Positions 22,906 to 51,758 of a stretch of DNA of 64,000 nt are shown here, one piece after another (the stretch's first letter is position 1; every line of letters starts with the position of its first letter). The position numbers were made by a program, and so were the translations under genes. This DNA is from a virus. The stretch is taken from positions 62,001 through 126,000 of the IMG/VR virus record IMGVR_UViG_3300022921_000002. The stretch is one strand, 5' to 3'. A model generated the notes under the pieces. It made no database searches and had not been told where the DNA came from. It was given only the letters and a program-made list of their open reading frames with translations.

Positions 22906-24140
22906 TACATACCTCGAATAGCAATAGTTGAATTTAAACCACCAAACGCAAAGTTATTACTGATTGCAACATCAACCTTCTTTTCCTTTGCGGTATTTGG
23001 TACGACGTCAAGATCACATTCAGGATCAGGTTCTTCATAATTAATTGTTGGTGCAATAATGCCATCGTTTACTGCCATAATTGCCGCAAGTAATTCAACT
23101 GCACCTGTTCCGCCAATACAATGTCCGTGCATAGATTTGGTTGAACTTACACTCAATTTATGAGCATGGTCACCGAATGTTTGTTTGATAGCATCAATTT
23201 CAGTTCTATCATTTGGAACTGTGCCTGTACCATGAGCATTTATATAATCAACTTGTTCTGGGTTAATTGATGCATCTTTGAGGCATTTTTTCATTGATCT
23301 AATCAATCCTGAAACTTCAGGCATCACAAGATCACTTGAGTCTGCAGTACACGCCGCACCTAATACTTCACAGATGATATTTGCACCACGATTTTTAGCA
23401 TGCCAATATTCTTCAAAGACAAATACACCTGCGCCTTCACCGTGAACAATACCTTGACGCCCAAGAGAAAACGGTCGACAGTAACCTGGGCTTACAACGC
23501 GCAAACCTTCCCATGCTTTCATTCCTGATAGATTTAGAATTGCTTCTGAACCACCTGTCAGCATAACAGGAGCCATACCGTATTTAACCATATGGAATGC
23601 TTGTGTCATTGCGTGGTTAGCAGAAGCACATCCTGACGTTACAGTAAATGATGGACCTTTGATATTATGTTCCATTGAGATATGGCAAACAGGAGCATTA
23701 CCCATAACACGTGGAATAATAAAAGGATTAGCACGGCGTTTTGGATTATCAGATGCAAAGTAATTATGATATGTCCGTTCCCAGGTTTCAGCGCCACCAC
23801 TACCGTTACCCATAATAATACCTGCTTCCTCAGCAAGTTCACCATCAAATTCTAAACCTGATTGTTCTACTGCCTCGCGGGCTGCAAGTATATTGAGTTG
23901 TGTAAACCTATCAAAGATTGCAATTTGCATTCTTGTCCAATGGTCTTTTTCATCATAGCCTTTAATTTGGCCACCACGAGTGTAGCGCATATTTTGAATT
24001 TCTATGATGTTTTGGAGTTCGCTAATGCCGTCGGTGCCTTCGGCCATTGCTTTCATTGTATCTTGGGCAGTCCATCCTAAAGAATTTATAGTGCCCATGC
24101 CTGTAATAACAACACGGTTAGTCTGTCTTGTTGAGCTCAT
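22905..24140 (-). CDS. fabF: Beta-ketoacyl-ACP synthase II (FabF/KAS II)
   Basis: A full-length (about 411 residue) thiolase-fold condensing enzyme that extends acyl-ACP with malonyl-ACP. The Cys-His-His triad is intact: nucleophile in TVTSGCASANHAM (about C171), NAHGTGTVPNDRTE (about H303) and STKSMHGHCIGGTGAVE (about H338 with the preceding Lys); the C-terminal NNFAFGGLNSTI loop is also present. Fatty-acid synthesis genes are very unusual in phages. It overlaps dCMP deaminase by one base and the 67-residue gene by 23 bases, so it is a resident part of the early operon. It could reshape host lipids or supply acyl chains; no ACP gene is seen. Confidence 0.93.
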   Translation of the reverse strand: MSSTRQTNRVVITGMGTINSLGWTAQDTMKAMAEGTDGISELQNIIEIQNMRYTRGGQIKGYDEKDHWTRMQIAIFDRFTQLNILAAREAVEQSGLEFDGELAEEAGIIMGNGSGGAETWERTYHNYFASDNPKRRANPFIIPRVMGNAPVCHISMEHNIKGPSFTVTSGCASANHAMTQAFHMVKYGMAPVMLTGGSEAILNLSGMKAWEGLRVVSPGYCRPFSLGRQGIVHGEGAGVFVFEEYWHAKNRGANIICEVLGAACTADSSDLVMPEVSGLIRSMKKCLKDASINPEQVDYINAHGTGTVPNDRTEIDAIKQTFGDHAHKLSVSSTKSMHGHCIGGTGAVELLAAIMAVNDGIIAPTINYEEPDPECDLDVVPNTAKEKKVDVAISNNFAFGGLNSTIAIRGM

Positions 24141-24321
24141 CAATTAATGTTTTCCTTTTTTCACTACCCATTGCTCCATCAAAAAGTGATTTGGCAGAAG
24201 TCATAAGACAACTGCCGAGCATTAGGATTTCTTCATTATCATCACACATCATAATAAGCCGATCTAATTCAGAATTAAAATAAGTCATTCTTTTTACAAC
24301 GTGGCGTGCGGAATGTGGCAT
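24118..24321 (-). CDS. Small helical protein, unknown
   Basis: A 67-residue helical protein (with a CDDNEEILMLGSCLM segment) between the WYL_2-like gene and fabF. It overlaps fabF by 23 bases and its start overlaps the upstream stop by one base. It has no recognised domain; co-translation with fabF may hint at an accessory role. Confidence 0.5.
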   Translation of the reverse strand: MPHSARHVVKRMTYFNSELDRLIMMCDDNEEILMLGSCLMTSAKSLFDGAMGSEKRKTLIDELNKTD

Positions 24322-28292: not shown

Positions 28293-28394
28293 ATGAAACT
28301 AAAGTATAGAATCAAGTTCTTTATGTCTAAATTAAAGTTTTGGAAAAAAGGAAGTTACGGTAAAGGTACGTTCATCTACGAAGATGATGATTAG
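28293..28394 (+). CDS. Small charged peptide (33 aa)
   Basis: ATG 28293 preceded by an excellent SD (GGAGGAG, 5-base spacing). Product is basic at first (MKLKYRIKFFMSKLKFWKKG) then acidic (YEDDD). Lies alone on the plus strand between two minus operons and overlaps the sulfotransferase 3' end by 23 bases. An AATAAATA at 28269-28276 could be a weak late box. Confidence 0.5.
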   Translation: MKLKYRIKFFMSKLKFWKKGSYGKGTFIYEDDD

Positions 28395-28986
28395 GTTCAT
28401 AATTAAATGTTTTGATATCTCTTTCATACCAATCTCCTATATCATTTATAAGCTTAGGAGTCCAAAGATTAGGGTAATCGCCTGTGACATTATACTTTTC
28501 TTGTAGTTCAACGCTGAAATAGTTTTTTACATCTTTCTTTAAAGTCTCAGTTTTCATCACATGGCACATTATTTTCCCATCATCGTTAGTAATGTGGTCT
28601 AATTGATTATGCCAATGAAGATGTGGTCTGTGCCATGTGAACGGCATTTCTATAAGTCTGTGCCTATCTTCAATAAATGCCTCAAAGCTTGAAAGATCAG
28701 TACCATGAACCTCATAATCTCTTGTCTTTGCATGCCAATAGCGAGAAGCTGTTCTCTGCCATGGATTTCTTACAACAGCAAATGCTTCAAACTTATCTCT
28801 ATATTCTGGGTAAAGGTCTTTCCATCTACTATGCTCAGCTCCTGGATATCCAATAACTTTTAAGCCCTGAATATAATCATAGTCTTTTAATTTATCTACA
28901 GTGTTAATGATAATTTGAGACTTTAGTGCGTTGCAATATCTTATAGAGAACCCACCTGTCTTTGGAATATGAATAAAAATTTTCAT
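28372..28986 (-). CDS. Sulfotransferase
   Basis: A 204-residue cytosolic-type sulfotransferase: IHIPKTGGFSIR at the start is the PAPS 5'-phosphosulfate loop, and VVRNPWQRTASRYW the 3'-phosphate-binding segment, plus the catalytic-site HRPHLHWH region. Likely transfers sulfate to a sugar or protein made by the upstream operon enzymes. It is the last gene of the fibre/modification operon and overlaps the GNAT gene by 4 bases. Confidence 0.85.
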   Translation of the reverse strand: MKIFIHIPKTGGFSIRYCNALKSQIIINTVDKLKDYDYIQGLKVIGYPGAEHSRWKDLYPEYRDKFEAFAVVRNPWQRTASRYWHAKTRDYEVHGTDLSSFEAFIEDRHRLIEMPFTWHRPHLHWHNQLDHITNDDGKIMCHVMKTETLKKDVKNYFSVELQEKYNVTGDYPNLWTPKLINDIGDWYERDIKTFNYEPNHHLRR

Positions 28987-29438
28987 AATCTATATACTGC
29001 GTATGCATTTTCTCCGTGTTTAAATGTCATCCACTCAGTCATACGAATGAACCCAAACTCTTCAGCATGAGAAAATGTAGGCCTACGAGGTAAACACCAT
29101 AAAAACTCACAACCTTCTCTTCTTCCTTGGTCTGCCACAGCTTGCCACATTATTTGAGATAACTTTTGTCTTCTATAATCTTCATCTACCCACACTCCAC
29201 GTCCTCTATAATAAGTTTCTGAAGTCTTGTGTCCTGAGTTTGAAGCTATAAGTTTATCTCCGTCATACAAGCCCCAGTAGGTGGCTTTATATTTTGTAAA
29301 TATTTCTTTATTGTTTCCAAGTTCAGGAAAAGTCATATCAGAAATATAATAGTGCTCATTCCCAGGCCACAACTTGTCCCAGGCTTCTTTAATCTGTTCT
29401 TTGGTTATTTCTCTAAGCTGATAATTCTGCATAGTCAT
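28983..29438 (-). CDS. GNAT-family acetyltransferase
   Basis: A 151-residue GNAT fold: VWVDEDYRRQKLSQIMWQAV is the acetyl-CoA-binding motif A (R/Q-x-x-G/K-L), followed by EFLWCLPRRPTFSHAEEFGF. Would acetylate an amine on a sugar or residue. Overlaps the 2OG gene by 26 bases and the sulfotransferase gene by 4. Confidence 0.75.
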   Translation of the reverse strand: MTMQNYQLREITKEQIKEAWDKLWPGNEHYYISDMTFPELGNNKEIFTKYKATYWGLYDGDKLIASNSGHKTSETYYRGRGVWVDEDYRRQKLSQIMWQAVADQGRREGCEFLWCLPRRPTFSHAEEFGFIRMTEWMTFKHGENAYAVYRL

Positions 29439-29961
29439 TCAGTACATTTACTACAAGGTGTATTCTATCTTCTTTACTTGAATTGAAGGCAGTGTGCTTT
29501 AACATAGTATTGGTTAAATACCACGTGTCTTGTTTGAGATGCATAATCTCATCATCTATAACCATAAAGCATCCTTCCTGTGTTTTTACAGGATAGTGTA
29601 TTCTTATTTGAGAATCAGTATGCCATGATAAACAAGTAAACGGTAAAGATTTCATTAATCTGACTCTACCGATTTTATATCTTTCATTCAACATATTATA
29701 AACAGTTTCAAGTACGGTGCCACGGAACACTGAGCACACGGTGTTGAAATCTTGTTCCTTGAGTTCTGTTTCTCGCAATGGTACTATAGTCTGACCATTT
29801 TTATAAACCTTTTTTGACCAATCATATTTCAAACTACCACATGCCATCTTTGTGTTATCAGGTGCATCCGATGTAGTTGTAATACCGATCTGTGTTTGAC
29901 CATCCCATTCAATATGATCTAATGTAAATGGCGGTAATTCTAATTCAGTAAAATTTTTCAT
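29413..29961 (-). CDS. AspH-like 2OG-Fe(II) hydroxylase
   Basis: A 182-residue protein of the aspartyl/asparaginyl beta-hydroxylase type. CLSWHTDSQIRIHYPVKTQE carries the iron-binding HxD, DTWYLTNTMLKHTAFNSS the distal His and 2OG-binding Arg (RIHLV). Hydroxylates an amino-acid or other acceptor using 2-oxoglutarate. Its place in an operon with radical-SAM and sugar enzymes suggests it modifies the same product. Confidence 0.8.
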   Translation of the reverse strand: MKNFTELELPPFTLDHIEWDGQTQIGITTTSDAPDNTKMACGSLKYDWSKKVYKNGQTIVPLRETELKEQDFNTVCSVFRGTVLETVYNMLNERYKIGRVRLMKSLPFTCLSWHTDSQIRIHYPVKTQEGCFMVIDDEIMHLKQDTWYLTNTMLKHTAFNSSKEDRIHLVVNVLNDYAELSA

Positions 29962-30650
29962 GGTTCAATCACAAGAAAAGGATATTCTAATTCGTGTACG
30001 ATTTGAATAGTACCACCAAGATGGCCTAATACGAACGGTGGTCTATACATTGTCAAAAATGTTTGGCATGGAGTATTATTTGCTTGTATCTGATCTCGTA
30101 TCAATACATTGTTATCGGTAAGATAAGCTATGTTTGTATCGGTCTCATTCTCTAAGTTACGTATATCAATACTTGACCCATCTCTTTCAACACGTGCCTT
30201 ATAAAACCTATCAAGTAATTTTGTACTATTCGTTCCGATAAGACTGATGATGATTTTCTTATAGGTAAATGTTTCTTTCATCCACCGAACGGTTTGTTTG
30301 AACTCATTAAAATCTGTATGGGTAAATACACTAAACGCAAAAATAATATCTTGCTTTGTATTGATATTGGGAAACGGTTCGTCGAGATTACCAGTCTGAT
30401 TATAAACTTTATTATATTTGTTATAGTGAAAAAAGTTAGCATCAGGATAATTTTTTGCACCAACATCCAATGCACCTTTATCAACATCAACACAAGTATA
30501 GTTACTTTGTTTGATTGGAAAATTATCAAACGATAATAGGTTACCTTGATTGCCACCCCAATCTAAAAATGTTGTTGTACTTGATAAATCATCAACCTCT
30601 AAAAGGCTGTTAAGACTGATTACCGATTTTTCTACCGGGTATAAATCCAT
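29958..30650 (-). CDS. SAM-dependent methyltransferase
   Basis: A 230-residue class I methyltransferase with TFLDWGGNQGNLLSFDNF (motif I), TCVDVDKGALDVG (acidic motif II) and DIIFAFSVFTHTD (motif IV region). Acceptor unknown. Overlaps the PP-loop gene by 41 bases and the 2OG gene by 4. Confidence 0.75.
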   Translation of the reverse strand: MDLYPVEKSVISLNSLLEVDDLSSTTTFLDWGGNQGNLLSFDNFPIKQSNYTCVDVDKGALDVGAKNYPDANFFHYNKYNKVYNQTGNLDEPFPNINTKQDIIFAFSVFTHTDFNEFKQTVRWMKETFTYKKIIISLIGTNSTKLLDRFYKARVERDGSSIDIRNLENETDTNIAYLTDNNVLIRDQIQANNTPCQTFLTMYRPPFVLGHLGGTIQIVHELEYPFLVIEP

Positions 30651-31344
30651 AATCCCAATCTCCCCATATTAATTTGCGTTCACCACAAGACCAACATACA
30701 CCACACGGTTTTTCTGTGTCAGGTATATTAGTACAGCATGACCTCGTTTCCTGCAACAAATCAAATAAATCAAATCTCCTGTAGATTGACGCAACAAACC
30801 TTTTATCAACATTTGCAAATGGAGAATAGTATGGATATCCAAATCTATCAATTGTAATAGGAATATCGTTTTCATTCCGTATACCAATCATTGGATCACA
30901 TTCTTTCCAAAGATTAATATGCGTACCATCTTTTAATTCAATGTCAACATCAAATCGAGGGTTAGCTGTATTACCGCCAATAAGCATATCATACTCACCA
31001 CGGCCAAACACTTCTTTTTGATATTTATGTAGGTGAGAGTCGTTATAATCATCACCGTAGACTGTATGGTGAGACAAGATGTTGTGGTAATCAAACTTGC
31101 TAATCATATATTCAATGATGTTGGCAGACCTTCGTGCCTGCCATCTATACCGCTTGTCAAAGGCTAGAGTAAGGCATCCAATCGTTGTATCGTGTCGGTT
31201 ATTTTCCGTTAAGTATTTGATTAGTAAATAAAAAACCAATGCCGAATCAGCACCACCGCTTAAATTAAAAAGTATTCTTTTACATTCTAACGGTATTTCA
31301 AAGCTTATAGATTGACCAAACTCATCCTCAAGATACATCATCAA
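30610..31344 (-). CDS. PP-loop ATPase, QueC-like
   Basis: A 244-residue adenine nucleotide alpha hydrolase-fold protein. ILFNLSGGADSALVFYLL contains the SGGxDS PP-loop (residues 29-34), and the C-terminal SCCTNIPDTEKPCGVCWSCG is a zinc-site arrangement like the CGxCxxC of QueC. QueC makes preQ0 from carboxydeazaguanine; no other queuosine-pathway gene is visible, so an amide- or thio-forming reaction on another substrate is equally possible. Overlaps SGNH and methyltransferase genes. Confidence 0.75.
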   Translation of the reverse strand: MMMYLEDEFGQSISFEIPLECKRILFNLSGGADSALVFYLLIKYLTENNRHDTTIGCLTLAFDKRYRWQARRSANIIEYMISKFDYHNILSHHTVYGDDYNDSHLHKYQKEVFGRGEYDMLIGGNTANPRFDVDIELKDGTHINLWKECDPMIGIRNENDIPITIDRFGYPYYSPFANVDKRFVASIYRRFDLFDLLQETRSCCTNIPDTEKPCGVCWSCGERKLIWGDWDYGFIPGRKIGNQS

Positions 31345-32161
31345 TCCACTTGTTTATCGCTGCACCGAGGTTTATTTGTCCTTTTGCATCAGGATGAGAG
31401 TCAAGTTCTGAAATTTTACTTTCTGCTGATATCCATTTACCACCAATCTCTTTCCATACAGGCCAACCATATACTTCAACAGGTTTGATCTTTTCAACTT
31501 TTGCAAATGCCTCGCCTGAGATTAATTCGTTTAAAATTGCCTTAGTTAAAAAACAATTCTCAACTCTTTCATCAATCATTAAGTTAAAAACTTTCCATTC
31601 CTTGGGGTGCTTTTGTCTAAAGTTATCGAGGTACCACCACCAGTAATCGGATGTAAACGGCCATATTGGGACATCAGATTGAAATATATTTAATTTAATA
31701 TTAAGTTTACGGCATAACATAATTACCTTCTCAATATAAAACAACGTGTTTTCTAATATAGGTATAGGTCCGTCGAGTGCTAATGGCAATGTATGTAAAC
31801 CCATTAAGTATTCAGCGCTTGAGTTATCTTTTCTGAATTTCTTTTCAGAATTAGATTCCATTGCAAACACCTCCCACCTTTTACAAGGCATTATTCTGCG
31901 CCTACCTAATTGCAATCTTGACCAATCGGTAAGTTGCCAACAAATGTGTGATGGAGGATCATCTGATAATACCGCGTCCATTATTTCAATATAAGCATAC
32001 TCATTTGAACTACCAGATCTACCTTTATTAACGGCAGGCAATCCCAAATGCTTTCCAACATATTCTGGCCATTTCGGCCATGAGCAATCAAGTTCTTCAT
32101 GCTGAAAAGAAAAGTAATTGTGGTCAGTCCAACTACATCCTACTGCAAGCAAATAACTCAT
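31328..32161 (-). CDS. SGNH/GDSL-like hydrolase
   Basis: A 277-residue protein with AVGCSWTDHNYF (block I, Ser), VNKGRSGSSNEYAYI (block II Gly/Asn) and DSHPDAKGQINLG (block V Asp-His). Such enzymes act as sugar O-acetyl esterases or acyltransferases in polysaccharide clusters. Overlaps the PP-loop gene by 17 bases and the double glycosyltransferase by 1. Confidence 0.7.
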   Translation of the reverse strand: MSYLLAVGCSWTDHNYFSFQHEELDCSWPKWPEYVGKHLGLPAVNKGRSGSSNEYAYIEIMDAVLSDDPPSHICWQLTDWSRLQLGRRRIMPCKRWEVFAMESNSEKKFRKDNSSAEYLMGLHTLPLALDGPIPILENTLFYIEKVIMLCRKLNIKLNIFQSDVPIWPFTSDYWWWYLDNFRQKHPKEWKVFNLMIDERVENCFLTKAILNELISGEAFAKVEKIKPVEVYGWPVWKEIGGKWISAESKISELDSHPDAKGQINLGAAINKWIDDVS

Positions 32162-33870
32162 TACATTATCAACCCAAAGTTTTTAGAAATAAAGTGTATG
32201 AATTGAAGTTCTTTAAACTTTATGTTTGTTTCTAACTCATGCTTTCTTTGTTTAAAATGGCGGTTGGTTGGATCATAGGCAGCCAGCTTAGTAGTATCGT
32301 GTTTGAAATGCCATTTCTCTTGTAGGCGCATTACAGGTACATTATTGATCTTAGTCTTATATGACATTATAGTTTCATTATCGTGTCCAAATGATCTACG
32401 GATCTCCTCAGTATACATTGAGAATTCCTTAACCTCATCCATTAAATCTAACAATTCATCAATGCCACCAAAATAATCAAGTTGTTCCATAATCTTTCGG
32501 CTTGACATCATAATCCCAGTATTGAATACCCAATTGTCACCATCAAGATCTTCCTCTGCCAACAATGCGTGCGCATTCCAATACTTTGCTTGGGGATTAC
32601 GGAAATCTTTATTATAATTTTTGAAATATAATGGATCTCTTACATTAACTCCTGCTTCATACGCGGTGTTTACATCACAACAAAATCCTTGTTCTGCTCT
32701 CAAATAATTAAACGCATCAAACTTATCAGCAAAATATACATCGTAATCAATATACAAAACTAAATCATAATCGTGAGTTAATTTATCAAGTAACCAAACT
32801 TTATATAGATTAATAATATTGTATTCTGTTAGTTGTGGAAATCTTGCCGCAAATGTTTCGTATTGCTCATCACGCCCAAACTGAATAAATTCTGCACCGC
32901 ATAGATCTGCATAATCTCGGTGGTTTTTATCTAACTTATCTTTAAATTCTGCAAGCCGTTGTTTAACACGGAGACTTTTCGGAACATCATCATCGGATGG
33001 ACCACGAGGATTGTCAAGACGTTCGTCAGGTATTTCAATATAAATTGAATAGATACATTTAGTTTTATCGTTAAAGAAATGATTGAACTTTTTATTAATA
33101 AAATGAGCAACCTTAATCTCATCCCAATCAACAGTTATAAGATCATCGGATACAATGTAATGCCATTCTCTATCCATCAAAACATACGGGATATTGAATT
33201 CTTCCATAATCCATGAAAACAATGATTCGTTGTTTGGATAATAATACATTCTCAAATAAGTACTATTAACACCCATAAGATTATCGTGCTTTATTTGATT
33301 AATCTTTTTTATGCCTTTTTTAATTCTTGCGATATACTTGATCTTTTTGATGTGTTCAGACTTGCCAACCATAATACCTGTATTCATCACATGGCAATCA
33401 AACTTATCATTAAGTAGATCTCTTGTGATATGGTATTTTAATGTTGGGTTACGCACGCCAATTTCTTGAAAGACAACTTCATTAATGTTTCTATTCAATA
33501 TCTTTTCATCTTGATCTTTAATATGAATGCCTTTACTCAAATCCAATTCATCAAACATATTCTCATCGGTATTGAATACCACATCCATATCAATATACAT
33601 TACTTCATCATATTCTTCAGCAAGTTTGGCAAATAAGTGATGTTTATATAAGTTAACCTTTGTAAACTCAACGTCGTGCTCGACAACAAAGTCTTTCATT
33701 GTGTTATGGAATAATTTAAATTCTACACCAATTTTATCGGCATAATCTTTTTTGTTGTCAATCAGTTTATCCCAATAATCTTTTTGCTGTTCGTGTGACC
33801 AATGATTAACATTCCATGCATCATCTTCACGACTAATATCATCCCAAACTGTAAATATAATTCGTTTCAT
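32161..33870 (-). CDS. Tandem (two-domain) glycosyltransferase
   Basis: A 569-residue protein made of two similar halves. Each has a GT-A-type strand ending in an Asp cluster: EYDEVMYIDMDVVFN in the first half and DYDLVLYIDYDVYFADKFDA in the second, plus a matching MNTGIMVGK / FNTGIMMSS region. This implies an internal duplication of a GT8-like unit, with one domain perhaps specialised. The start at ATG 33870 (MKRIIFTVWDDIS...) is preferred over one 60 bases upstream. Overlaps the methyltransferase by 4 bases. Confidence 0.7.
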   Translation of the reverse strand: MKRIIFTVWDDISREDDAWNVNHWSHEQQKDYWDKLIDNKKDYADKIGVEFKLFHNTMKDFVVEHDVEFTKVNLYKHHLFAKLAEEYDEVMYIDMDVVFNTDENMFDELDLSKGIHIKDQDEKILNRNINEVVFQEIGVRNPTLKYHITRDLLNDKFDCHVMNTGIMVGKSEHIKKIKYIARIKKGIKKINQIKHDNLMGVNSTYLRMYYYPNNESLFSWIMEEFNIPYVLMDREWHYIVSDDLITVDWDEIKVAHFINKKFNHFFNDKTKCIYSIYIEIPDERLDNPRGPSDDDVPKSLRVKQRLAEFKDKLDKNHRDYADLCGAEFIQFGRDEQYETFAARFPQLTEYNIINLYKVWLLDKLTHDYDLVLYIDYDVYFADKFDAFNYLRAEQGFCCDVNTAYEAGVNVRDPLYFKNYNKDFRNPQAKYWNAHALLAEEDLDGDNWVFNTGIMMSSRKIMEQLDYFGGIDELLDLMDEVKEFSMYTEEIRRSFGHDNETIMSYKTKINNVPVMRLQEKWHFKHDTTKLAAYDPTNRHFKQRKHELETNIKFKELQFIHFISKNFGLIM

Positions 33871-34538
33871 ATACCAATCACCATATATCTTTGATATTGA
33901 GCATTCTCCGGTGTAGTAAATCCTGACCAAAATACTCTTGTTAAACCCAATGATTTTTCAAATTCTTCAATACTGTTATGAGTATTAATGTGCTCAGCTT
34001 CATTATGAAAGTTATTACTTTGAAAGCATACAATGCAATTTGGTTTCTTAAGGCGGATAATCATTTCAATATCCTCCTGTTCCATATGCTCACAACTTGT
34101 ATTAATAATGAGTTGAAAATTTTCTGCGCGTTCAATAAAATAATCTATTGCATCATCATGCTTCCAATGAATATTTTGGCAATGCTCAATATCTTTGTGT
34201 AGCATAGGACCGTATATTTCACATTGGTAATCTGAATCAACATTCCATACCGCAACATCATTATCGAGATGTTCTTTCATTAATAATCCGGCAATACCAT
34301 ACCATGCACCCATAACTAAAACGTGCTCAATCGGCCCGTCTCGTAGAAAGGTTTCATCGTTTACAAATTCTTTGAGGTTTTCAACCAGCCATTGCTTACT
34401 TGTTGTTTGGCTAGGATTAACGGCAGTCATAATATCGAGTGAACGGTATAAATCTACATTAGGATTATACTTTGACTCAACATATATTTCTTCAATTATT
34501 TTAAGAGCATTTTTATAAAGTGTTTCTAGGTAATTCAT
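33867..34538 (-). CDS. SAM methyltransferase-like protein
   Basis: A 223-residue protein with a Rossmann motif (HVLVMGAWYGIAGLLM), VWNVDSDYQC (acidic loop) and LIINTSCEHM (motif IV). Probably methylates a sugar or a protein residue together with the neighbouring glycosyltransferases. Overlaps both neighbours (4 and 26 bases). Confidence 0.65.
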   Translation of the reverse strand: MNYLETLYKNALKIIEEIYVESKYNPNVDLYRSLDIMTAVNPSQTTSKQWLVENLKEFVNDETFLRDGPIEHVLVMGAWYGIAGLLMKEHLDNDVAVWNVDSDYQCEIYGPMLHKDIEHCQNIHWKHDDAIDYFIERAENFQLIINTSCEHMEQEDIEMIIRLKKPNCIVCFQSNNFHNEAEHINTHNSIEEFEKSLGLTRVFWSGFTTPENAQYQRYMVIGI

Positions 34539-35121
34539 ATTTCATTCCATTATACATATCAATTGGTGCAGTGCCATTATAAGGATTGGCAATTGAGTTT
34601 ACTAATCCGTGTTCAAACGTATTAAATTCAATACCTTCATGGACAAGAAAACGATCTATACCTGCGTACTTTCTCATAAAGTAATCTTTATTTGACATAA
34701 AGTGATCCCAGATATGATTCTGTTCACCAGCAGTCCATGTGATTACTGAACTATTTATGTGAACATCATAAGCATGAGGTGCCATGTATAAATCGTCTTT
34801 CCAATAATCTTTAATGATTGTTAACCCATCCCAATTCAACCATGGGCGCGGATCAGCTTTAATATCCATGTCTAAATCAAAGAATAAACATTTACCTCTG
34901 ACTGGAAAATCTTTACTAAACATTGCAAGTTTATTCCACCAAAATCTAAGTGATGGTTTTTTGAAACATGGAATACACTCAATCTCAACATTCAACGGAT
35001 TATCAGTATAGCACAAGTATTGAGAATTAGGATAGTATTCTCGTAGCTGATCTCTCAATCTGTTAACGTGTTCAGGGTCGTACTTGTCACCATGTTTCAC
35101 AAATATAATATTATCGGTCAT
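34513..35121 (-). CDS. GT-A-like glycosyltransferase (small)
   Basis: A roughly 200-residue protein (MTDNIIFVKHGDKYDPEHVN...) with CLFFDLDMDIKADPRPWLNW, a DxD-type metal site, and SLRFWWNKLAMF before it. Resembles short GT8/GT25-type transferases. An upstream start at 35130 is possible. Overlaps the radical-SAM gene by 11-20 bases. Confidence 0.65.
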   Translation of the reverse strand: MTDNIIFVKHGDKYDPEHVNRLRDQLREYYPNSQYLCYTDNPLNVEIECIPCFKKPSLRFWWNKLAMFSKDFPVRGKCLFFDLDMDIKADPRPWLNWDGLTIIKDYWKDDLYMAPHAYDVHINSSVITWTAGEQNHIWDHFMSNKDYFMRKYAGIDRFLVHEGIEFNTFEHGLVNSIANPYNGTAPIDMYNGMKYELPRNTL

Positions 35122-36211
35122 TAATTGCATTCCTCAATAAGTTCATAATTTTTGTAACTGCATTCCTGCTATTACGGTTAGACAGGTTTAATATTTTTAG
35201 TCTATTCATTATATCTTCTAATACATCTTTTGATAACAAATTAATATTCCAATTTTCAGTATGCTGCCGTCCTGCTCTATCATATGCATTTATAAACGCG
35301 CCAAAACCATTCCACTCCGCATATTTAAAAAACAAATCAATATTTTCGGCATTGACTTTCATAAGAGTTGAATTAACTTTAATGTTTTCAGGACCTAATA
35401 CATCTTTAAACTTTTGAATGTTATCCATTGTTTCATTATACTTACCGCCAATTCTAATCATATCATATTCCGATTCAACAACAGTATCTAATGAAACTGA
35501 AAGACTAATGTTGTTTTCTTGGCACATCCTTAAAACTTTTTTATTAAATACACTACCGTTAGTACAGATTTGTACTCTCATCTCAGGATTAATGTCGGCA
35601 ATCAACGCACAAAGTTTATATAATGCTTTATGAGAAAACGGTTCTCCACCAACAAATCTTATCTCTTTTAGGTGTGGAATAAACTCGACAAACTGTTCAA
35701 GCAATTGTTCTAGGTTTTCATCATTATCAAACACGTTTGGATCATATTGTTTAAGATCTTTATCGCGTCCTAACATATGTTTTGATGATAATTCGCCAAA
35801 GCACATTGGGCACGCCATATTACACAGATTACTAATTTCAAATTCAAAAACTCTAGGCCATGAGTTAGCATCCATTGCGTGTTCTAATCTATCTCTGCCA
35901 ACATTATAATCATATTCAATAATAGGTGGTGTTTCACCTTTATCAATTCTTTTTTGACAAGCAGCCTGACAACCTGCACTTAATTTATTCTCAAGGAAGT
36001 CATCTTTATAAGTGTTGTTTAATTCACCAAACCAATAATCTTTTAAACCAAACTGATCTTTTTTCCATATTTTCATTTTACGGCTAAAGCAGCAAGGATG
36101 CATCCCGCCGTTTCTTCTTATTCGCATATGATTAAATGCGGCATAGCATGAGATAATTTTATGTTCTTCGGGTATAGTTCGTTTACTTTGAAATAAATCC
36201 CACTTATTCAT
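35111..36211 (-). CDS. Radical SAM protein (SPASM/twitch type)
   Basis: A 366-residue radical-SAM enzyme: SNLCNMACPMCFGELS holds the CxxxCxxC cluster (C130, C134, C137), RFVGGEPFSH is the GGEP motif, and VQICTNGSVF is typical of the core strand. N-terminal cysteines (HPCCFSR, GCQAACQ) could bind an extra Fe-S cluster. Enzymes of this type modify peptides or sugars. Overlaps the other radical-SAM gene by 8 bases. Confidence 0.88.
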   Translation of the reverse strand: MNKWDLFQSKRTIPEEHKIISCYAAFNHMRIRRNGGMHPCCFSRKMKIWKKDQFGLKDYWFGELNNTYKDDFLENKLSAGCQAACQKRIDKGETPPIIEYDYNVGRDRLEHAMDANSWPRVFEFEISNLCNMACPMCFGELSSKHMLGRDKDLKQYDPNVFDNDENLEQLLEQFVEFIPHLKEIRFVGGEPFSHKALYKLCALIADINPEMRVQICTNGSVFNKKVLRMCQENNISLSVSLDTVVESEYDMIRIGGKYNETMDNIQKFKDVLGPENIKVNSTLMKVNAENIDLFFKYAEWNGFGAFINAYDRAGRQHTENWNINLLSKDVLEDIMNRLKILNLSNRNSRNAVTKIMNLLRNAINDR

Positions 36212-37415
36212 TATCTTTGTATTCCTTCAAATATGGAGCCAAATCCCATATGTCTTCATTATTTTCACGTGCCACTAAACAAAAGTCAATCCATTCAACC
36301 ATTCTTTCTTGTATCTCTGCCTTTTCGCCATTCCATTCTTCTTCTTGTGGTACAACACTTAATACGTTATTAGTATTACTCAAATCAAGTTTTGGGTTTC
36401 GCCAATAAAATTTATCGACTTGTTCAAATTTAGAATTAAGATATTCAAATAGTTTATCAATACCTTCTTTTTGGTGATGATCCTCTAACCAAACAGGTGA
36501 ACAATATTTTGGAAATGTAACAAGGTTTGCCATACTTACACGAGGCACACCAGGTACATCAATAAAGTAATCAATCAATTCTGGTAAGTGCATCCAATTA
36601 TAAATTGAGACCGTTGCAACAACTATTACGATGCGTCCTTCGACAGCGTGGTACCGATTGATATTATTTATTGTGCGTTCAAAGTTACCGCCACGGATCC
36701 AATCATATGTTTCGTGTACTCCATCAATACTTGCTTGAATGTGTACTTCTTCAATCTGATGTAAAATATCAATAACAGTATTAGTAACCAATTGAAAGTT
36801 AGTACAAATCTCAACACGGCATTTAGGATTTGTTTCCGCAACCTTTTTCAATATTTTTATATTGTTTGGGTCAGCAAATGGTTCACCACCTTTAATGGTT
36901 AGGTGCTGTAAATGTGGAACAAGATCAAGTACCTTATCAACATCGGCGTCAGTCATCTTATACATATCAGTGTGGAATTTATGATTTTGGTTTCGCCAAT
37001 CTAAACCAGACTCCACCGCCATTTTTTCATATGGTGCCCACTTTGACGAATACTTACCTGAACAGGTTACGCACATTTGGTTACAGATATTACTTGTTGT
37101 AAGCTCAAGAAACCTTATTGGTGTTACCTCAGCGGCAACGTCTTCTTCATATGTTGGAAATTTAAAACGGTTGTAAGTATCAAACCGAGCAAGGCGCCCT
37201 GCATCCCAATGGCGCCAACAGACATCACATTGAGGCGGGAATTTCTTTTCTTTAAAATCTGCACGGATTTGGTTGTATATATCACCGTTAAAGAACTCAG
37301 TTAAATCAGGAACATCTTTAATATGTGATACCGCAGTGTTATCACCGGCACAGCATAAGACAATTTCTCCAATAGGATTGATTGTCAATCCAGTTTCAGG
37401 TACCATACATTTCAT
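36204..37415 (-). CDS. Radical SAM protein (SPASM/twitch type)
   Basis: A 403-residue radical-SAM enzyme: SNICNQMCVTCSGKYS (C111, C115, C118), LTIKGGEPFAD, and VEICTNFQLV core strand. N-terminal CCAG and CDVCW pairs suggest an auxiliary cluster. It is paralogous in layout to the 366-residue gene that follows. It is the first enzyme gene after the fibre-like genes (5-base gap), so the pair probably acts on a fibre- or glycan-linked substrate. Confidence 0.88.
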   Translation of the reverse strand: MKCMVPETGLTINPIGEIVLCCAGDNTAVSHIKDVPDLTEFFNGDIYNQIRADFKEKKFPPQCDVCWRHWDAGRLARFDTYNRFKFPTYEEDVAAEVTPIRFLELTTSNICNQMCVTCSGKYSSKWAPYEKMAVESGLDWRNQNHKFHTDMYKMTDADVDKVLDLVPHLQHLTIKGGEPFADPNNIKILKKVAETNPKCRVEICTNFQLVTNTVIDILHQIEEVHIQASIDGVHETYDWIRGGNFERTINNINRYHAVEGRIVIVVATVSIYNWMHLPELIDYFIDVPGVPRVSMANLVTFPKYCSPVWLEDHHQKEGIDKLFEYLNSKFEQVDKFYWRNPKLDLSNTNNVLSVVPQEEEWNGEKAEIQERMVEWIDFCLVARENNEDIWDLAPYLKEYKDNE

Positions 37416-37420
37416 AATAA

Positions 37421-37990
37421 TTAATCCAATACTGTGTTGATAATAGAGATTGCCTCAGTAATTTTAGTTGAGCGTCGGATTTTAGATTTGATTTCTTTTG
37501 GTGCCTTTTTAATTATATCTTGTTCTAATGACCATAGTTTAAATTTAAATACTGCTTCTTTATTAGTATTGTTATCAAGGATATATTCAAACGCAACATT
37601 ATCAACCTTATTCGTTTTCATTTTAAATGCTTGGTCCAACGTTGTCAAGTCATCTTTTGTTTTCTCAAGGTCCACACGTTTTGTATGTAGATCTTTAAGT
37701 ACACGTGCCTTTTCTTTTTCAAGTTCTTCAATACCAAGGATCTCCCTTGCCCTCATATTAACACGTGTATTGAACTCACGAGAATAACGACGTTTAAATT
37801 CTACCGTGTCATCAAGAATTGATTCTTCATCCCATCCTTCTTCAATCAATGCTTTATAATCTGCGCTATCGGGATTGTTTTCAATAACGTGAGCAACTTT
37901 AGTGTCGCCATCCTCGAATATAATCTCAATTGTATTATAACCTTCATCTATATAATGTGCTTCAATTACCTTACCACTAAACACTGACAT
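37421..37990 (-). CDS. Fibre-operon protein, paralogue of upstream gene
   Basis: An approximately 189-residue protein (MSVFSGKVIEAHYIDEGYNT...) paralogous to the 169-residue gene just upstream: same N-terminal strand pattern, EEGWDEESILDD matching EEGWTKDRLLDS, and ILDNNTNKEAVFKFKLWSLE matching MDNNTSKEEIFKVKLWALE. It adds a coiled-coil insertion (LEKEKARVLKDLHTKR). Start at 37990 gives a 14-base overlap with the upstream gene. Structural or chaperone role in fibres is inferred. Confidence 0.6.
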   Translation of the reverse strand: MSVFSGKVIEAHYIDEGYNTIEIIFEDGDTKVAHVIENNPDSADYKALIEEGWDEESILDDTVEFKRRYSREFNTRVNMRAREILGIEELEKEKARVLKDLHTKRVDLEKTKDDLTTLDQAFKMKTNKVDNVAFEYILDNNTNKEAVFKFKLWSLEQDIIKKAPKEIKSKIRRSTKITEAISIINTVLD

Positions 37991-38486
37991 CTTCATCACC
38001 CTCATCAATAGCTTGTTGGATTATACCTAACGTGCTCAAAATTGTTTTACTTTTACGAATATCTCGTTTTAATTTTGAATCACTGTCTTTAATAAAAGGC
38101 AATTCCAACGCCCATAATTTAACTTTAAATATTTCTTCTTTACTTGTATTGTTATCCATAATAGCTTCATACTTATCAAGACCCATTGTTTTGAGTTTTT
38201 TCTCAGCCTTCATACTTTGACTAATAATTAAATGCTTTGCCTGGGCATTAACAAATGTTGCAAATTCTCTACTTGTTCTCTGTTTATATTCTGCAGTTGA
38301 ATCGAGGAGTCTATCTTTTGTCCATCCTTCTTCAACCAGATCAATATAATCAGGATTATCGGTATCATCTGCGGGAAGGTGGAATACGTGCTCTTTGCCA
38401 TCATCGTCAAGCCATTTGACAAAAATAGTATCGTAGTTGTTACTGATATAATACGCTGTAACTATGCGTTTGCTAAATACTGCCAT
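37977..38486 (-). CDS. Fibre-operon protein, paralogue of downstream gene
   Basis: A 169-residue protein (MAVFSKRIVTAYYISNNYDT...) that shares its whole layout with the following gene, without the coiled-coil insertion. Strand-rich N-terminus, helical C-terminus. Lies 15 bases downstream of the 347-residue fibre-like gene. Probably a virion or assembly factor; family not recognised. Confidence 0.6.
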   Translation of the reverse strand: MAVFSKRIVTAYYISNNYDTIFVKWLDDDGKEHVFHLPADDTDNPDYIDLVEEGWTKDRLLDSTAEYKQRTSREFATFVNAQAKHLIISQSMKAEKKLKTMGLDKYEAIMDNNTSKEEIFKVKLWALELPFIKDSDSKLKRDIRKSKTILSTLGIIQQAIDEGDEDVSV

Positions 38487-38501
38487 AATATATTCACTTT
38501 C

Positions 38502-39545
38502 TTATGATTTTACAATTCTTAAATAATATGTTTCTCTTGTTTGTGTTACACCGCTTGGAAATTCTTGAGTACGATAATCATCGGTATTGACAAATCTTGT
38601 TTGGTAACCGTCATCTGATTCACCTGATAGATATGTATCCGCCATACCCGTACCACGTTGCAGCCCATCACCTGTATATGTCGAGTCAGTGATTTCATAT
38701 GTGATCTTATAACCATCAACAGTACGAGCAACAAGGTTGATTTCATATGAAAGCATATCTTGGAATTCTTCCAACGTATATGTTTGCACTGATCCATCGG
38801 CGGCGGCGTAACATGGAATTTTTACACCAAATTCTGTCCCATCACTCGAGACATTAATTTCGCTAACGGCATTCTTTATGTATAGATAATAAGTGTTTAC
38901 AATAAAATAAATGTCACGGTCATAAAAAGGTTCGCCAATCTGATCTCCAGGTGTGACATCATAACCGCCAGTTATATCATATTTTGAATCTTGGAAAACT
39001 GAACGTGTTCCTACTTGAGTAAAACCAGATTCAGCACCTGTACCAATTTTATATGTGCCTTGCTGATTATCGCCAACAGCTTGGAATGCCATTTCGTTAA
39101 TCGTAGGATAAATGTATGTGTCACGGAAATCCTCACGAGACATAGAACGCAAATTAGCATCACTATCAACGTATAACGGATATCGGTGTGTTTCTTCTGA
39201 TATTGGATATGTTGGCTCAGTTATAGAATTAAATCTTTGTTTAATACCACGCCAAGGTGTTGTAACTAATTCAATGTCAGGTGTTTCCGCAGGAGTGTCA
39301 AAATTTGTTATGTCGGTGGTATCTTCGCCTGCTTTATAACGTGTATCCGTAATAGTACCAATAATATCAGGATCATTAGCAAACTGTGTAAACGGGTTTA
39401 ATACATATAACTCAACTGCGGGGTTTAGTGCATATTGCCGTGCTGCTTCACGTCGCCAAAACGATTGTTCTAGGGATGGTGATTCTCGAAACGATAACAC
39501 ACCGTTAGTGTCAACTGAAACATAGGCTGCTGTGCGTGCGGTCAT
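38502..39545 (-). CDS. Tail-fibre-like structural protein
   Basis: A 347-residue protein paralogous to the 331-residue gene at 39779. Both begin MTAR, contain RYKAGEDTTD / RRTAGAATEN, RSMSREDFRDTYIYPTINEM / RAMTKADFRDTFIIPTIDAL, and end with a TQEFPSGVTQTRETYYLRI-like strand (TQEFPVGSPTNLISYGLRI in the other). Beta-rich and charged with no catalytic motif, typical of T4-like marine fibre or whisker proteins. Coupled by TAATG to the 70-residue gene. Confidence 0.6.
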   Translation of the reverse strand: MTARTAAYVSVDTNGVLSFRESPSLEQSFWRREAARQYALNPAVELYVLNPFTQFANDPDIIGTITDTRYKAGEDTTDITNFDTPAETPDIELVTTPWRGIKQRFNSITEPTYPISEETHRYPLYVDSDANLRSMSREDFRDTYIYPTINEMAFQAVGDNQQGTYKIGTGAESGFTQVGTRSVFQDSKYDITGGYDVTPGDQIGEPFYDRDIYFIVNTYYLYIKNAVSEINVSSDGTEFGVKIPCYAAADGSVQTYTLEEFQDMLSYEINLVARTVDGYKITYEITDSTYTGDGLQRGTGMADTYLSGESDDGYQTRFVNTDDYRTQEFPSGVTQTRETYYLRIVKS

Positions 39546-39757
39546 TAATCATCACTTCCACAGTAAAATGTTTTAAGAACGGTACCGTCTGAAGCTTTAA
39601 CTTCAAACTTGTGATCCTTGGCAACCACACCAGAGTTAATTGTCGCGGTTGTAATTTTTTGGTTAATGATGGTAGACGTTCCTGCGTCAATATCGGCAAT
39701 GTTTTCTAAATGCCGAGTATCATCAATAACTATGCTAGTTCCTACTTTTAATGGCAT
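39545..39757 (-). CDS. Small fibre-associated protein (70 aa)
   Basis: A 70-residue protein: VGTSIVIDDTRHLENIADID, a common N-terminal motif of marine phage fibre proteins (G-T-x-V-I-D-D-x-R-x-L-x-N-I). Paralogue of the 61-residue gene at 40787 (VAGTEVIDNALQLKNVA). The RBS is AGGAGGCAAGG. Preceded by its own late promoter (39776-39783). Confidence 0.6.
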   Translation of the reverse strand: MPLKVGTSIVIDDTRHLENIADIDAGTSTIINQKITTATINSGVVAKDHKFEVKASDGTVLKTFYCGSDD

Positions 39758-39775
39758 CCTTGCCTCCTATGAATT

Positions 39776-39783
39776 TATTTATA
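39776..39783 (-). promoter_or_regulatory. T4-type late promoter (TATAAATA on minus strand)
   Basis: Exact late box 19 bases upstream of the 70-residue gene start, overlapping the stop region of the 331-residue gene. Gives the second fibre unit and the modification operon an internal late promoter. Confidence 0.75.
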
Positions 39784-40774
39784 TTTTTCTAATACGAAGA
39801 CCATATGAAATTAGATTTGTCGGTGAACCAACCGGGAATTCTTGAGTACGATATAAGTCATTACCTGTTGTTCCAACTTGTCTTGTTGTATAACCTGCTG
39901 CTGATGTTCCGTCAAGAATCGTGTCATTCATCAATGTACCTTTGAGTGTAAGAGGACTTGAACTACTTGTAAGGCTATATTGAATTTCATTTCCTGTAGA
40001 ATCAGACGCAATGTGTTTTAACTCACCGAGAATTAAAGCATCAAATGCCGCAACAGTATATTGTCTAATATCTCCATTTGTGTCAATATAAAAAGGTGGT
40101 TCATATGCTACCGCCGACGTATTAACTTTATGTAAGTAATACTGATTAATAATGATTGGCTGATCTTCATTCTCAGGAATACCACCTGACGTATAAACTG
40201 CAGAATCAGCACGCCTATCAATAAACACGGGGTTGGCATTTTGGAGTGTTGCACCTGTAACACTATTTGTTGCCGCAATAAAATATGTACCACCTTGGTC
40301 CGCGGTTTCACCTGAAGAAACAAGTGCATCAATTGTAGGAATAATAAACGTATCTCTAAAATCAGCTTTGGTCATTGCTCTAATTCCGAGTGATCCTGTC
40401 CCAACTGCATATACAGGAAACGCAAGGTTTTCATCAGTATACGTAGGTGCTGCTGCTAAAGTATAATCAACTTGTAATGTAGTATAGGTAACTTCTTCAC
40501 TACCTGTATCAGGTGTGGCTGCCTCAGATGCATAGTTAGCAACAGTAGAAGGACCGTTTTCTGTTGCCGCTCCAGCTGTCCTACGAGTATCAATCATACT
40601 ACCCATATTACCACCACTTGCAACACGAGAAACTGTAACTACTTCATCGTTTGCTAATAGGTGTGCTGCATTTTGAAATATGGCTTGCAGATCTGTACTT
40701 GACATTTCAGTAAGTCTTGTCACTGCAGTATTGGAATTTGCTTCATCCCAATATAATGGTAACCTTGCTGTCAT
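39779..40774 (-). CDS. Tail-fibre-like structural protein
   Basis: A 331-residue protein, paralogue of the 347-residue gene (see shared blocks there). Begins MTARLPLYWDEANSNTAVTR. It follows the 61-residue gene by 12 bases. Beta-rich, Thr/Ser-rich; likely fibre, whisker or baseplate decoration. No enzymatic motif. Confidence 0.6.
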   Translation of the reverse strand: MTARLPLYWDEANSNTAVTRLTEMSSTDLQAIFQNAAHLLANDEVVTVSRVASGGNMGSMIDTRRTAGAATENGPSTVANYASEAATPDTGSEEVTYTTLQVDYTLAAAPTYTDENLAFPVYAVGTGSLGIRAMTKADFRDTFIIPTIDALVSSGETADQGGTYFIAATNSVTGATLQNANPVFIDRRADSAVYTSGGIPENEDQPIIINQYYLHKVNTSAVAYEPPFYIDTNGDIRQYTVAAFDALILGELKHIASDSTGNEIQYSLTSSSSPLTLKGTLMNDTILDGTSAAGYTTRQVGTTGNDLYRTQEFPVGSPTNLISYGLRIRKI

Positions 40775-40786
40775 TTTATTGTCCTT

Positions 40787-40972
40787 TTATAAGGCGCAAT
40801 AATACGCAGCAATAATTGTGCCTGCCGCATTATAAACTGTTAGAACATTTGCTTGGTTTTTAATTGAGTTATTAATCGCGGTATCAGTTGTTGTATCTGT
40901 GCTTGCCACGTTTTTTAACTGTAACGCATTATCAATTACTTCGGTGCCTGCTACTTGAATCGCCATCTTCAT
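40787..40972 (-). CDS. Small fibre-associated protein (61 aa)
   Basis: A 61-residue protein (MKMAIQVAGTEVIDNALQLK...) matching the fibre N-terminal pattern. It ends AAYYCAL, parallel to TFYCGSDD in the 70-residue paralogue, so a Cys near the C-terminus is conserved. An alternative start is MAIQV at 40966. First gene after the palindromic late promoter. Confidence 0.6.
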   Translation of the reverse strand: MKMAIQVAGTEVIDNALQLKNVASTDTTTDTAINNSIKNQANVLTVYNAAGTIIAAYYCAL

Positions 40973-41003
40973 CTCCTTTGACTATTAGCAATCTTATTAG
41001 TTT

Positions 41004-41015
41004 TATTTATAAATA
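41004..41015. promoter_or_regulatory. Overlapping divergent late promoters (TATTTATAAATA)
   Basis: A 12-base palindrome in which a minus-strand TATAAATA (41004-41011) and a plus-strand TATAAATA (41008-41015) share four bases. It can serve either the fibre operon (minus) or the EF-hand membrane gene (plus), not both at once on one DNA copy. Confidence 0.75.
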
Positions 41016-41066
41016 TTCTCAGTGAGTTATTTGCTATGTTACTGATTTTTTCACAGGAGCTATTAT

Positions 41067-41438
41067 ATGGCTTATGTCAACGCCTTTGGAGTGGAGATGA
41101 AAACTATGGCAAAGAAAGAAATAACAGTTGATGCTGAAGCAGCAGCTGCACTCGACACAAATAATGACGGTCATATCTCGGCAGAAGAGCTGAGTATGGA
41201 GTTGGAATTTAAACGCAAGCGCCTTGAAGATCAAGATGCTCAACGAGATGCAATGCGTAAAATGACTTGGTTTGCATTGTTTGGAATGTTATTGTACCCA
41301 GTAGGTATTGCTATAACATCATGGTTAGGATTAGATGAAGCATCAGGATTAATTGGAGATATTGCACCGACATATTTTGTTGCAATTTCTGCACTTGTTT
41401 CTGTTTTCTTTGGTGCTAACGCATACAGTAGTAAGTAA
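41067..41438 (+). CDS. EF-hand membrane protein
   Basis: A 123-residue protein with one canonical EF-hand loop (DTNNDGHISAEE, calcium ligands at positions 1, 3, 5, 9 and 12) at about residues 30-41, then two membrane helices (WFALFGMLLYPVGIAITSWL; YFVAISALVSVFFGANAY). The RBS AGGAGC supports ATG 41067. A calcium-responsive holin or adhesion protein is possible. It is alone between a late promoter and a hairpin. Confidence 0.7.
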   Translation: MAYVNAFGVEMKTMAKKEITVDAEAAAALDTNNDGHISAEELSMELEFKRKRLEDQDAQRDAMRKMTWFALFGMLLYPVGIAITSWLGLDEASGLIGDIAPTYFVAISALVSVFFGANAYSSK

Positions 41439-45371: not shown

Positions 45372-46184
45372 ATGAGATTTTTACCCTTCATACTAATATT
45401 CTTTTTAAGTGCCTGCGCAACACCCGGAAGTTTGAAAGTTTTAGGTGACCTTGATAAATCTCCAACATTATCAGGAAGTCCTATTGATGATAGATTACTC
45501 GCCGTTCCTGAACTGTCAGGTCCAAAGATTACAATTGCAGTTTATGAATTTGCCGATAAGACAGGTCAAAGAAAGACGAGTTCCAACTCATCATTATCAA
45601 GTGCCGTAACTCAAGGTGCTGAGGTTTGGGTAATTAAAGCATTACAAGATGTGGGCAATCAAACATGGTTTGAGGTAGTTGAAAGAGTTGGCATTGATAA
45701 TCTAATTAAAGAAAGACAGCTTATTCGCCAAACGCGTGAAGTATATGAAAAAGAAAAAGAAAAAGGCCCGACACCTTTACAGCCAATGTTATTTGCCGGC
45801 TTATTACTTGAAGGTGGTGTTGTAGGTTATGACTCCGATACCGCGGCCGGTGGAGTAGGTGCAAGATTCCTAGGAGTCGGAGCCTCAACAGAATATAGAG
45901 TTGATACAGTAACAGTTGTTATGAGACTTGTGAGTGTTAATTCAGGAAAGGTGTTAATGAGTATCGCAACTGAGAAATCAATTGCAAGTTACAGATCTTC
46001 AACCGATGTATTTAAATTTATTGATTTAGGACAAGAAAATATTGAGGTTGAAAATGGGTATTCCGTAAATGAACCTGTGAACTATGCAGTAAGGGCTGCA
46101 ATAGAACAGGGTGTGATAGAATTGGTTAAAGACGGGGTCGATAAGGGATTATGGTCGTATAAAATAAAAGAGATAAGAGGATAG
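45372..46184 (+). CDS. csgG: CsgG-like curli outer-membrane export channel lipoprotein
   Basis: A 270-residue homologue of CsgG. Lipoprotein signal (lipobox LSAC at C15); ITIAVYEFADKTGQRK; VKALQDVG-type helix; ERVGIDNLIKERQLIRQTRE; GGVVGYDSDTAAGGVGARFL; GASTEYRVDTVTVVMRLVSV; NEPVNYAVRAAIEQGVIELV; DGVDKGLWSYK. These are the conserved CsgG blocks, nearly in full length. CsgG is a nonameric outer-membrane channel, so the phage may open a selective export route in the host outer membrane. The start abuts csgF. Confidence 0.95.
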   Translation: MRFLPFILIFFLSACATPGSLKVLGDLDKSPTLSGSPIDDRLLAVPELSGPKITIAVYEFADKTGQRKTSSNSSLSSAVTQGAEVWVIKALQDVGNQTWFEVVERVGIDNLIKERQLIRQTREVYEKEKEKGPTPLQPMLFAGLLLEGGVVGYDSDTAAGGVGARFLGVGASTEYRVDTVTVVMRLVSVNSGKVLMSIATEKSIASYRSSTDVFKFIDLGQENIEVENGYSVNEPVNYAVRAAIEQGVIELVKDGVDKGLWSYKIKEIRG

Positions 46185-51322: not shown

Positions 51323-51758
51323 ATCTCGGTAACACCACACCGCATTGTTCCATAATCTTATAGAGTGTAAGTAATGCTTCGCACTCAAATTCATGGTAGG
51401 TTTTTTGATTTAAAACAATTGTATCTAATTCAGGAATGTCCATAGGGGCTATTACAATCTTATGAGGTAATAGCCCGCCGACATTAACAAGTCCTTCGAC
51501 AATAGGAGAGTTTGCTCTTGTTGTAATACCGATGATACAGTCAGCAAAAGTTCCGTATTCATATATCCATCTTTTATGCCAACCCTCATCACCACCCAAG
51601 GCGGTTAGGTGAATAGCATCAGGTGCAAAGCAATGTTTGCCAAGATGCCTTGTCATATCAGATGCAGCGTGTTGAGCAATAGCAAGGTTTCCGCCATTGC
51701 CTACAATAGCAATCTTTGGTGAATGAGATATTTTTTTAATAAGATTAAGATCTATCAA
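51306..51758 (-). CDS. SIS-domain phosphosugar isomerase (GmhA-like)
   Basis: A 150-residue protein: AIVGNGGNLAIAQHAASDMT matches the GmhA GNGGSAADAQHFAAE motif, then HLTALGGDEGWHKRW and GITTRANSPIVEGLV. Isomerises a sedoheptulose-type phosphate for LPS heptose synthesis. Shorter than GmhA (about 190). Overlaps kdsB by 14 bases. Confidence 0.75.
   Translation of the reverse strand: MIDLNLIKKISHSPKIAIVGNGGNLAIAQHAASDMTRHLGKHCFAPDAIHLTALGGDEGWHKRWIYEYGTFADCIIGITTRANSPIVEGLVNVGGLLPHKIVIAPMDIPELDTIVLNQKTYHEFECEALLTLYKIMEQCGVVLPRFKTVS

Follow-up and report, generated by a model that had tools for sequence, protein, structure and literature searches.

Some marine phages carry hypervariable islands in which tail fibre genes stand together with GT8-type glycosyltransferases (GTs) and radical S-adenosylmethionine (SAM) cassettes. 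In pelagimyophages these islands have been read as a means of modifying the host O-chain (Zaragoza-Solas et al. 2020, PMC7029224), and in pelagimyophages and cyanomyophages the host recognition cluster (HRC) described there lies between VrlC and the neck gene gp14. Here we analyze a unit of comparable composition in virus record IMGVR_UViG_3300022921_000002 (221,447 bases, referred to as G000), of which bases 62001-126000 form the 64,000-base window; coordinates follow the window numbering unless G000 is stated. Read along the minus strand (40972 to 28372), the window carries in order sm1, fib1, sm2, fib2, cc1, cc2 and then eleven enzyme genes (Table 1). Like an HRC, this unit joins putative fibre genes, glycosyltransferases and radical SAM genes, and its content is hypervariable between relatives, but it is not located between VrlC and gp14: in G000 VrlC occupies 44.0-49.5 kb and gp14 1.0-1.7 kb, whereas the unit lies at 90-103 kb, 51 kb beyond VrlC, and the VrlC-gp14 interval is occupied mainly by very large fibre-type genes. 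Furthermore, our analysis distinguishes a constant core from terminal blocks that are swapped, and the acceptor that we propose is the fibre and not host lipopolysaccharide (LPS). The original prediction for this DNA had known of no described phage system of such composition, a claim that needs amending in view of the HRC islands.

Phage glycosyltransferases that act on virion proteins are also on record. In mycobacteriophages they modify capsid and tail tube, according to the account of Freeman et al. (2023) given in PMC12619734. The window unit differs in adjoining a fibre-type gene and in its numerous tailoring enzymes, and its action on virion proteins is putative. In giant viruses, viral GT-A enzymes whose targets include virion proteins are the PBCV-1 capsid glycosyltransferase, by its PDB title, and mimivirus R699, which we take to have such targets; these viruses are unrelated to the window phage, and the likeness of their enzymes is one of fold only, at 9-10% identity. 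Bacterial adhesin and flagellin glycosylation loci place the acceptor gene beside its own cytosolic glycosyltransferases and variable modifiers. The window unit may be likened to these loci in layout, with fib as the proposed acceptor.

Our main observation is that a core formed by the fibre-type gene fib, the glycosyltransferase genes GT3 and GT2x and the methyltransferase gene MT2 is kept as a unit in divergent phages and at two different places in the genome. A search of IMG/VR seeded with GT2x returned 36 loci, which fall into 20 groups at 90% identity. GT3 and MT2 were found in all 20, and fib, at a distance within about 9 kb, in each of the 15 testable groups, those reaching at least 6 kb upstream; the five groups lacking fib have less than 3 kb of upstream sequence. 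With fib as the seed, 18 groups extended 4 kb or more downstream, and 17 of these had two or all three of the core enzymes. MT2 proved too broad a seed for this test, being found also in radical SAM arrays without fib, and GT2x was used instead. The original prediction had suggested a gene-neighbourhood search in metagenomes as a check, and the linkage of fib with GT3, MT2 and GT2x does recur across the IMG/VR groups.

The linkage takes two forms. In arrangement A, VrlC is followed by a long fibre gene, fib and then enzymes mostly convergent to fib; in arrangement B, sm, fib, cc, an optional radical SAM gene and GT3-MT2-GT2x lie on one strand, and VrlC is not nearby. Pelagibacter phage Mosig, which carries fib and core enzymes and shows the HRC layout, has its fib homologue Mosig_00097 on the same strand as VrlC, a small gene and Mosig_00098, which precede it in that order, and many IMG/VR contigs share this order from VrlC to fib. 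The window genome has arrangement B, and the only two fib genes found in it are both 51 kb beyond VrlC. In Mosig-type loci the genes directly upstream of fib mostly encode long, repetitive proteins (repeat type IADNAVTTAKI), and a profile made exclusively from sm-type proteins matches the C-terminal ends of these proteins (best E value 4e-6 against a small set of targets). Because this profile matches the C-termini of fibre genes that precede fib elsewhere, each small sm gene of the window resembles the C-terminal domain of a fibre that has become separate, with fib coming next just as it does after a complete fibre gene. The linkage of fib and the core in two genomic positions is our strongest argument for a shared function.

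We consider a dedicated fibre-decoration unit to be the best reading, with a probability of about 55%. The virus would make two fibre-type tip proteins, fib1 and fib2, with a small domain like a fibre C-terminus (sm1 or sm2) encoded ahead of each. Cytosolic GT3 and the tandem GT2x would build a short glycan on them, alongside MT2, and the radical SAM enzymes, together with the swappable SGNH, PP-loop, methylation, hydroxylation, acetylation and sulfation enzymes, would act before assembly to tailor this glycan or the side chains near it. The scaffold would come from the constant core and the final chemistry from the swappable block, and related phages would thereby present different fibre surfaces. 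We infer the fibre-like character of fib from its context, and likewise its presence on the virion, its role as acceptor, the order of the steps and their purpose, be it receptor binding, shielding or mimicry. The neighbouring fib is favoured as acceptor because the two-position linkage, the fibre-type domain, the cytosolic enzymes and the swapping of terminal blocks fit it. The original prediction had proposed a decorated structure on fibres or on a displayed glycan; a decorated structure tied to the fibre is the part best supported by synteny, and the acceptor may be either the fibre or a host glycan.

Several observations weigh against this reading. A fold search of PDB and BFVD with fib1, whose AlphaFold (AF2) model is confident (predicted local distance difference test, pLDDT, 86; predicted template modelling score, pTM, 0.85), gave nothing significant. 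The groups that display the linkage share ancestry and are not independent events. GT2x also resembles the O-antigen glycosyltransferase WbbM, and AspH-family enzymes can act on lipid A (LpxO). Finally, the MT2 family is also found in a second group of phage contigs without fib, three of them of 332-363 kb. In these fib-less loci as many as eight radical SAM genes are packed into about 16 kb, adjoined by QueC-like, AspH-like, SGNH-like and carbamoyltransferase-like genes, the last two types recognised by eye from sequence. The enzyme combination is recurrent, and the link to fib is one of its two settings. By a seed-profile count, at least five radical SAM genes were present in 28 loci; L092, L105, L113, L132 and L147 are among the examples of fib-less arrays. 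A search of genome contigs with MT2 gave mainly distant methyltransferases on Rhizobiales chromosomes, together with the phage-looking contigs L149, L150 and L221, and does not point to a bacterial LPS locus as the source of MT2.

The main rival is modification of the host surface, in which the enzymes would alter the LPS O-chain or lipid A of the host during infection, stopping co-infection or the re-adsorption of progeny, and fib would adjoin them since both belong to a host-recognition island. This is the published reading of related pelagimyophage islands (PMC7029224) and of the LPS clusters of P-SSM2 (PMC2984593). GT2x has no sequence-family match, and PDB sequence searches with GT2x, fib and GT3 alignments gave no match; the AlphaFold model of GT2x (pLDDT 86) matches GT-A enzymes in Foldseek (E about 1e-7), and the top match, the bifunctional O-antigen glycosyltransferase WbbM, speaks for the host surface. 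The other matches include LARGE1, the lysyl hydroxylase LH3, mimivirus R699 and the PBCV-1 capsid glycosyltransferase, so that the modelled fold appears compatible with both protein and lipopolysaccharide acceptors and does not decide. The genome also encodes an epimerase (57689-58573) and a cytidylyltransferase (51745-52434), possible donor-supply genes outside the operon that fit this rival too. However, neither a membrane protein nor a flippase, polymerase or ligase is encoded in the operon, and the core retains its fib partner outside the VrlC island. No clear membrane helix was detected among the operon products, the highest 19-residue hydropathy mean, 1.62 against a typical threshold of about 1.6-1.8, sitting in the QueC-like PP-loop domain; the membrane flippase and membrane glucosyltransferase that characterize gtrABC-type serotype conversion have no counterpart among these products, none of which has a membrane-helix-like segment. 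On balance we regard host-surface modification as possible but unlikely. The epimerase and the cytidylyltransferase each have neighbours, a 2-oxoglutarate oxygenase in the first case (56950-58573) and two genes of unassigned function in the second (51306-53269), all possible sugar-donor genes, and a partial match to adenosine 5'-phosphosulfate kinase at 205.6 kb of the genome may be another P-loop kinase.

The terminal part of the unit differs even between near-identical phages. Contig L006 matches the window at 98.5% identity from sm1 to GT2x (32176-41392), then carries an unrelated convergent block and rejoins the window at 28208; the five genes of this block encode an FG-GAP repeat protein, an AspH-like protein, a SnoaL-like protein and two unknown proteins (third and fifth in order, on either side of the SnoaL-like gene). 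In L007 (93%) the window's block is present and the sulfotransferase is missing. Ratios of nonsynonymous to synonymous substitution (dN/dS) against L007 were 0-0.16 in cc2 and the ten enzymes common to both phages, whereas cc1 gave 0.28 and the fib genes 0.24-0.35; with values of 0-0.35, all compared genes are kept functional by purifying selection, and fib changes faster.

To describe the cassettes in general, we assembled 134 non-redundant non-core proteins from 36 loci, nearly all from the 9 kb after fib; the exceptions are three L009 proteins slightly beyond 9 kb and two loci without detected fib. Radical SAM enzymes account for 38 of the 134, against none of 40 upstream controls (Fisher p 1.6e-5); SPASM domains are present in 14 and AspH-like proteins number 8. 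Others are fatty-acid desaturases, carbamoyltransferases, TauD, GDSL and DegT proteins, tryptophan halogenases, epimerases, QueC and an AMP-binding enzyme. At L009:15892-19838 a B12-type radical SAM gene, an AMP-binding enzyme gene and a tryptophan-halogenase-like gene stand in one phage cassette, and another holds a cytochrome P450 (L046:10288-11535).

Twitch/SPASM-type radical SAM enzymes often act on peptides, and AspH-family enzymes hydroxylate Asp or Asn in proteins. Their presence in the cassettes lends some weight to a direct tailoring of the fib polypeptide, in which radical SAM, AspH and QueC-like enzymes would modify side chains as in the maturation of ribosomally synthesized and post-translationally modified peptides, the glycosyltransferases would add single sugars, and a glycan would not be the main product. 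We think this quite improbable: the constant core consists of glycosyltransferases and a methyltransferase, whereas the radical SAM genes are variable, and no precursor-peptide-like gene was recognised in the operon. Another suggestion, that the operon is a DNA hypermodification cluster, draws on the occurrence of QueC-like and 2-oxoglutarate enzymes in phage DNA-modification pathways. It is very improbable, given the fixed linkage to fib and an operon with no base hydroxymethylase or nucleotide kinase, and a review saw no evidence of glycosylated DNA in cyanomyoviruses (PMC2984593). A Tet/JBP search of the genome gave no match; its control was also silent, and the result is not counted.

Under the preferred fibre-decoration reading, fib is a definite candidate acceptor for many marine-phage glycosyltransferase and radical SAM genes that are at present classed with host-LPS functions. 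Should the fibres of the virion indeed be glycosylated and tailored, both the host range of marine phages and their shielding would be a matter of chemistry as much as of protein sequence, and pairs of near-identical phages with different terminal blocks would serve as natural experiments. A broader idea, which we put forward tentatively and hold to be doubtful, is that aquatic phages share a toolbox of radical SAM, MT2, QueC-like, AspH-like, SGNH, carbamoyltransferase and glycosyltransferase enzymes, in some cases with a halogenase or P450, that builds natural-product-like, phage-specific chemistry on virion proteins and so gives the particle a chemical identity layer that evolves fast. We know of no described example of such a layer in any virus. 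In our literature searches the HRC paper (PMC7029224) was the only close match to the operon composition; no description was found of the full enzyme set, of a constant core tied to fib, of its position outside the island, of the sm domain, of block swapping between near-identical phages or of a measured radical SAM enrichment.

Table 1. Genes of the fibre/enzyme unit in order of transcription (window coordinates; evidence for each assignment in the last column).
Gene and predicted product	Position	Strand	Evidence
sm1, small protein (61 amino acids) like long tail fibre C-terminal domain	40787..40972	-	sm-type profile match to fibre C-termini
fib1, fibre-type protein (331 amino acids), Mosig_00097 homologue	39779..40774	-	34% identity to Mosig, full length; no PHROG family match
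sm2, second small fibre C-terminal-like protein	39545..39757	-	28% identity to sm1
fib2, second fibre-type protein (347 amino acids), Mosig homologue	38502..39545	-	32% identity to fib1; no PHROG family match
cc1, protein after fib in many loci	37977..38486	-	no PHROG match better than 0.01
cc2, cc1 paralogue, conserved after fib	37421..38008	-	35% identity to cc1
rSAM1, radical SAM with N-terminal twitch-type region	36204..37415	-	NF033640; CxxxCxxC
rSAM2, radical SAM, rSAM1 paralogue	35111..36211	-	Pfam Radical_SAM 6e-19; CxxxCxxC
GT3, glycosyltransferase (core)	34513..35130	-	phrog_1962 at 1.7e-12; FDLD region invariant in 16-row alignment
MT2, class I methyltransferase family, motif NTSCEHM (core)	33867..34538	-	no own family match; alignment profile matches solved PDB methyltransferases at 1e-4
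GT2x, tandem GT-A glycosyltransferase (core)	32161..33930	-	AlphaFold model and Foldseek
SGNH-type hydrolase or acyltransferase (swappable block)	31328..32161	-	motifs GxS (GCS) and DxH (DSH), no Pfam match; homologues in other cassettes
QueC-like PP-loop enzyme (swappable block)	30610..31344	-	QueC 5e-4; SGGADS and Cys4 motif
MT12, methyltransferase (swappable block)	29958..30650	-	Methyltransf_12 1.8e-6, slightly under Pfam cut-off; DWGGNQG
AspH-like 2-oxoglutarate hydroxylase (swappable block)	29413..29961	-	Asp_Arg_Hydrox 1e-11
GNAT acetyltransferase (swappable block)	28983..29438	-	Acetyltransf_1 2.9e-9
Sulfotransferase (swappable block)	28372..28986	-	Sulfotransfer_2 3.2e-5

All genes that the original prediction had listed at 28372-41000 are present, and their identifications hold by family, motif or fold matches. 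The fibre-type modules occupy 40972-37421 and the enzyme genes 37415-28372, with 15 of the 16 junctions overlapping or at most 15 bases apart and gaps of up to 21 bases among the sm and fib genes and between cc2 and rSAM1. The predicted overlaps of 1-41 bases in the enzyme part likewise stand, provided that the tandem glycosyltransferase starts at an internal ATG (33870), which reduces one mechanical overlap of 64 bases to 4; the N-termini of GT2x relatives point to this position as the probable start. Duplication is frequent, all five paralogue comparisons giving BLASTP E values between 6e-9 and 5e-37: sm1/sm2 (6e-9), fib1/fib2 (1e-30), cc1/cc2 (5e-37), rSAM1/rSAM2 (27% identity) and the halves of GT2x (25%, 1e-17), the last of which gives three glycosyltransferase domains in two genes. 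The duplicated fibre-like genes of the prediction are therefore recovered as fib1 and fib2.

rSAM1 scores 209.3 bits against the N_Twi_rSAM model NF033640, above the curated cut-off of 170, and rSAM2 149.6 bits, below it; rSAM2 is consequently filed as a radical SAM enzyme and rSAM1 paralogue only. The QueC-like protein reaches 20.1 bits against QueC PF06508, under the cut-off of 22 bits, and keeps its label as a likeness, with the SGGxDS PP-loop and the Cys4 motif intact. The sulfotransferase carries both motifs for binding 3'-phosphoadenosine 5'-phosphosulfate, PKTGG and RNPWxRxxSxY, and the AspH-like gene is the only one found in the genome.

The source genome is that of a 221-kb T4-like marine myovirus, with matches of Mosig to the major capsid, portal, sheath, terminase, prohead protease and VrlC proteins of G000. 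The window also holds genes for CsgG (45372-46184) and a curlin-repeat protein (47957-48850), and curli genes are a feature reported for pelagimyophages (PMC7029224). Since 17.9 kb of the fibre/enzyme region recur at ≥99.9% in independent metagenome contigs, this region is not an assembly artefact. Outside the window, the neck genes gp13-gp14-gp15 are present at both ends of G000 (1-2459 and 217320-219554) as two divergent copies with 61-76% protein identity, reflecting either a duplication or an assembly join of two related phages, and the VrlC-gp14 interval includes fibre-type genes of 3119 amino acids (G000 7792-17151) and of more than 3400 amino acids, a lower bound (G000 29675-40675). Elsewhere in the window, 22905-24143 encodes a beta-ketoacyl synthase of FabF type, and 53420-55462 a protein similar to the product of a gene that bears the annotation adenylate/guanylate cyclase in HTVC008M (35%) and in Melnitz phages (49%).

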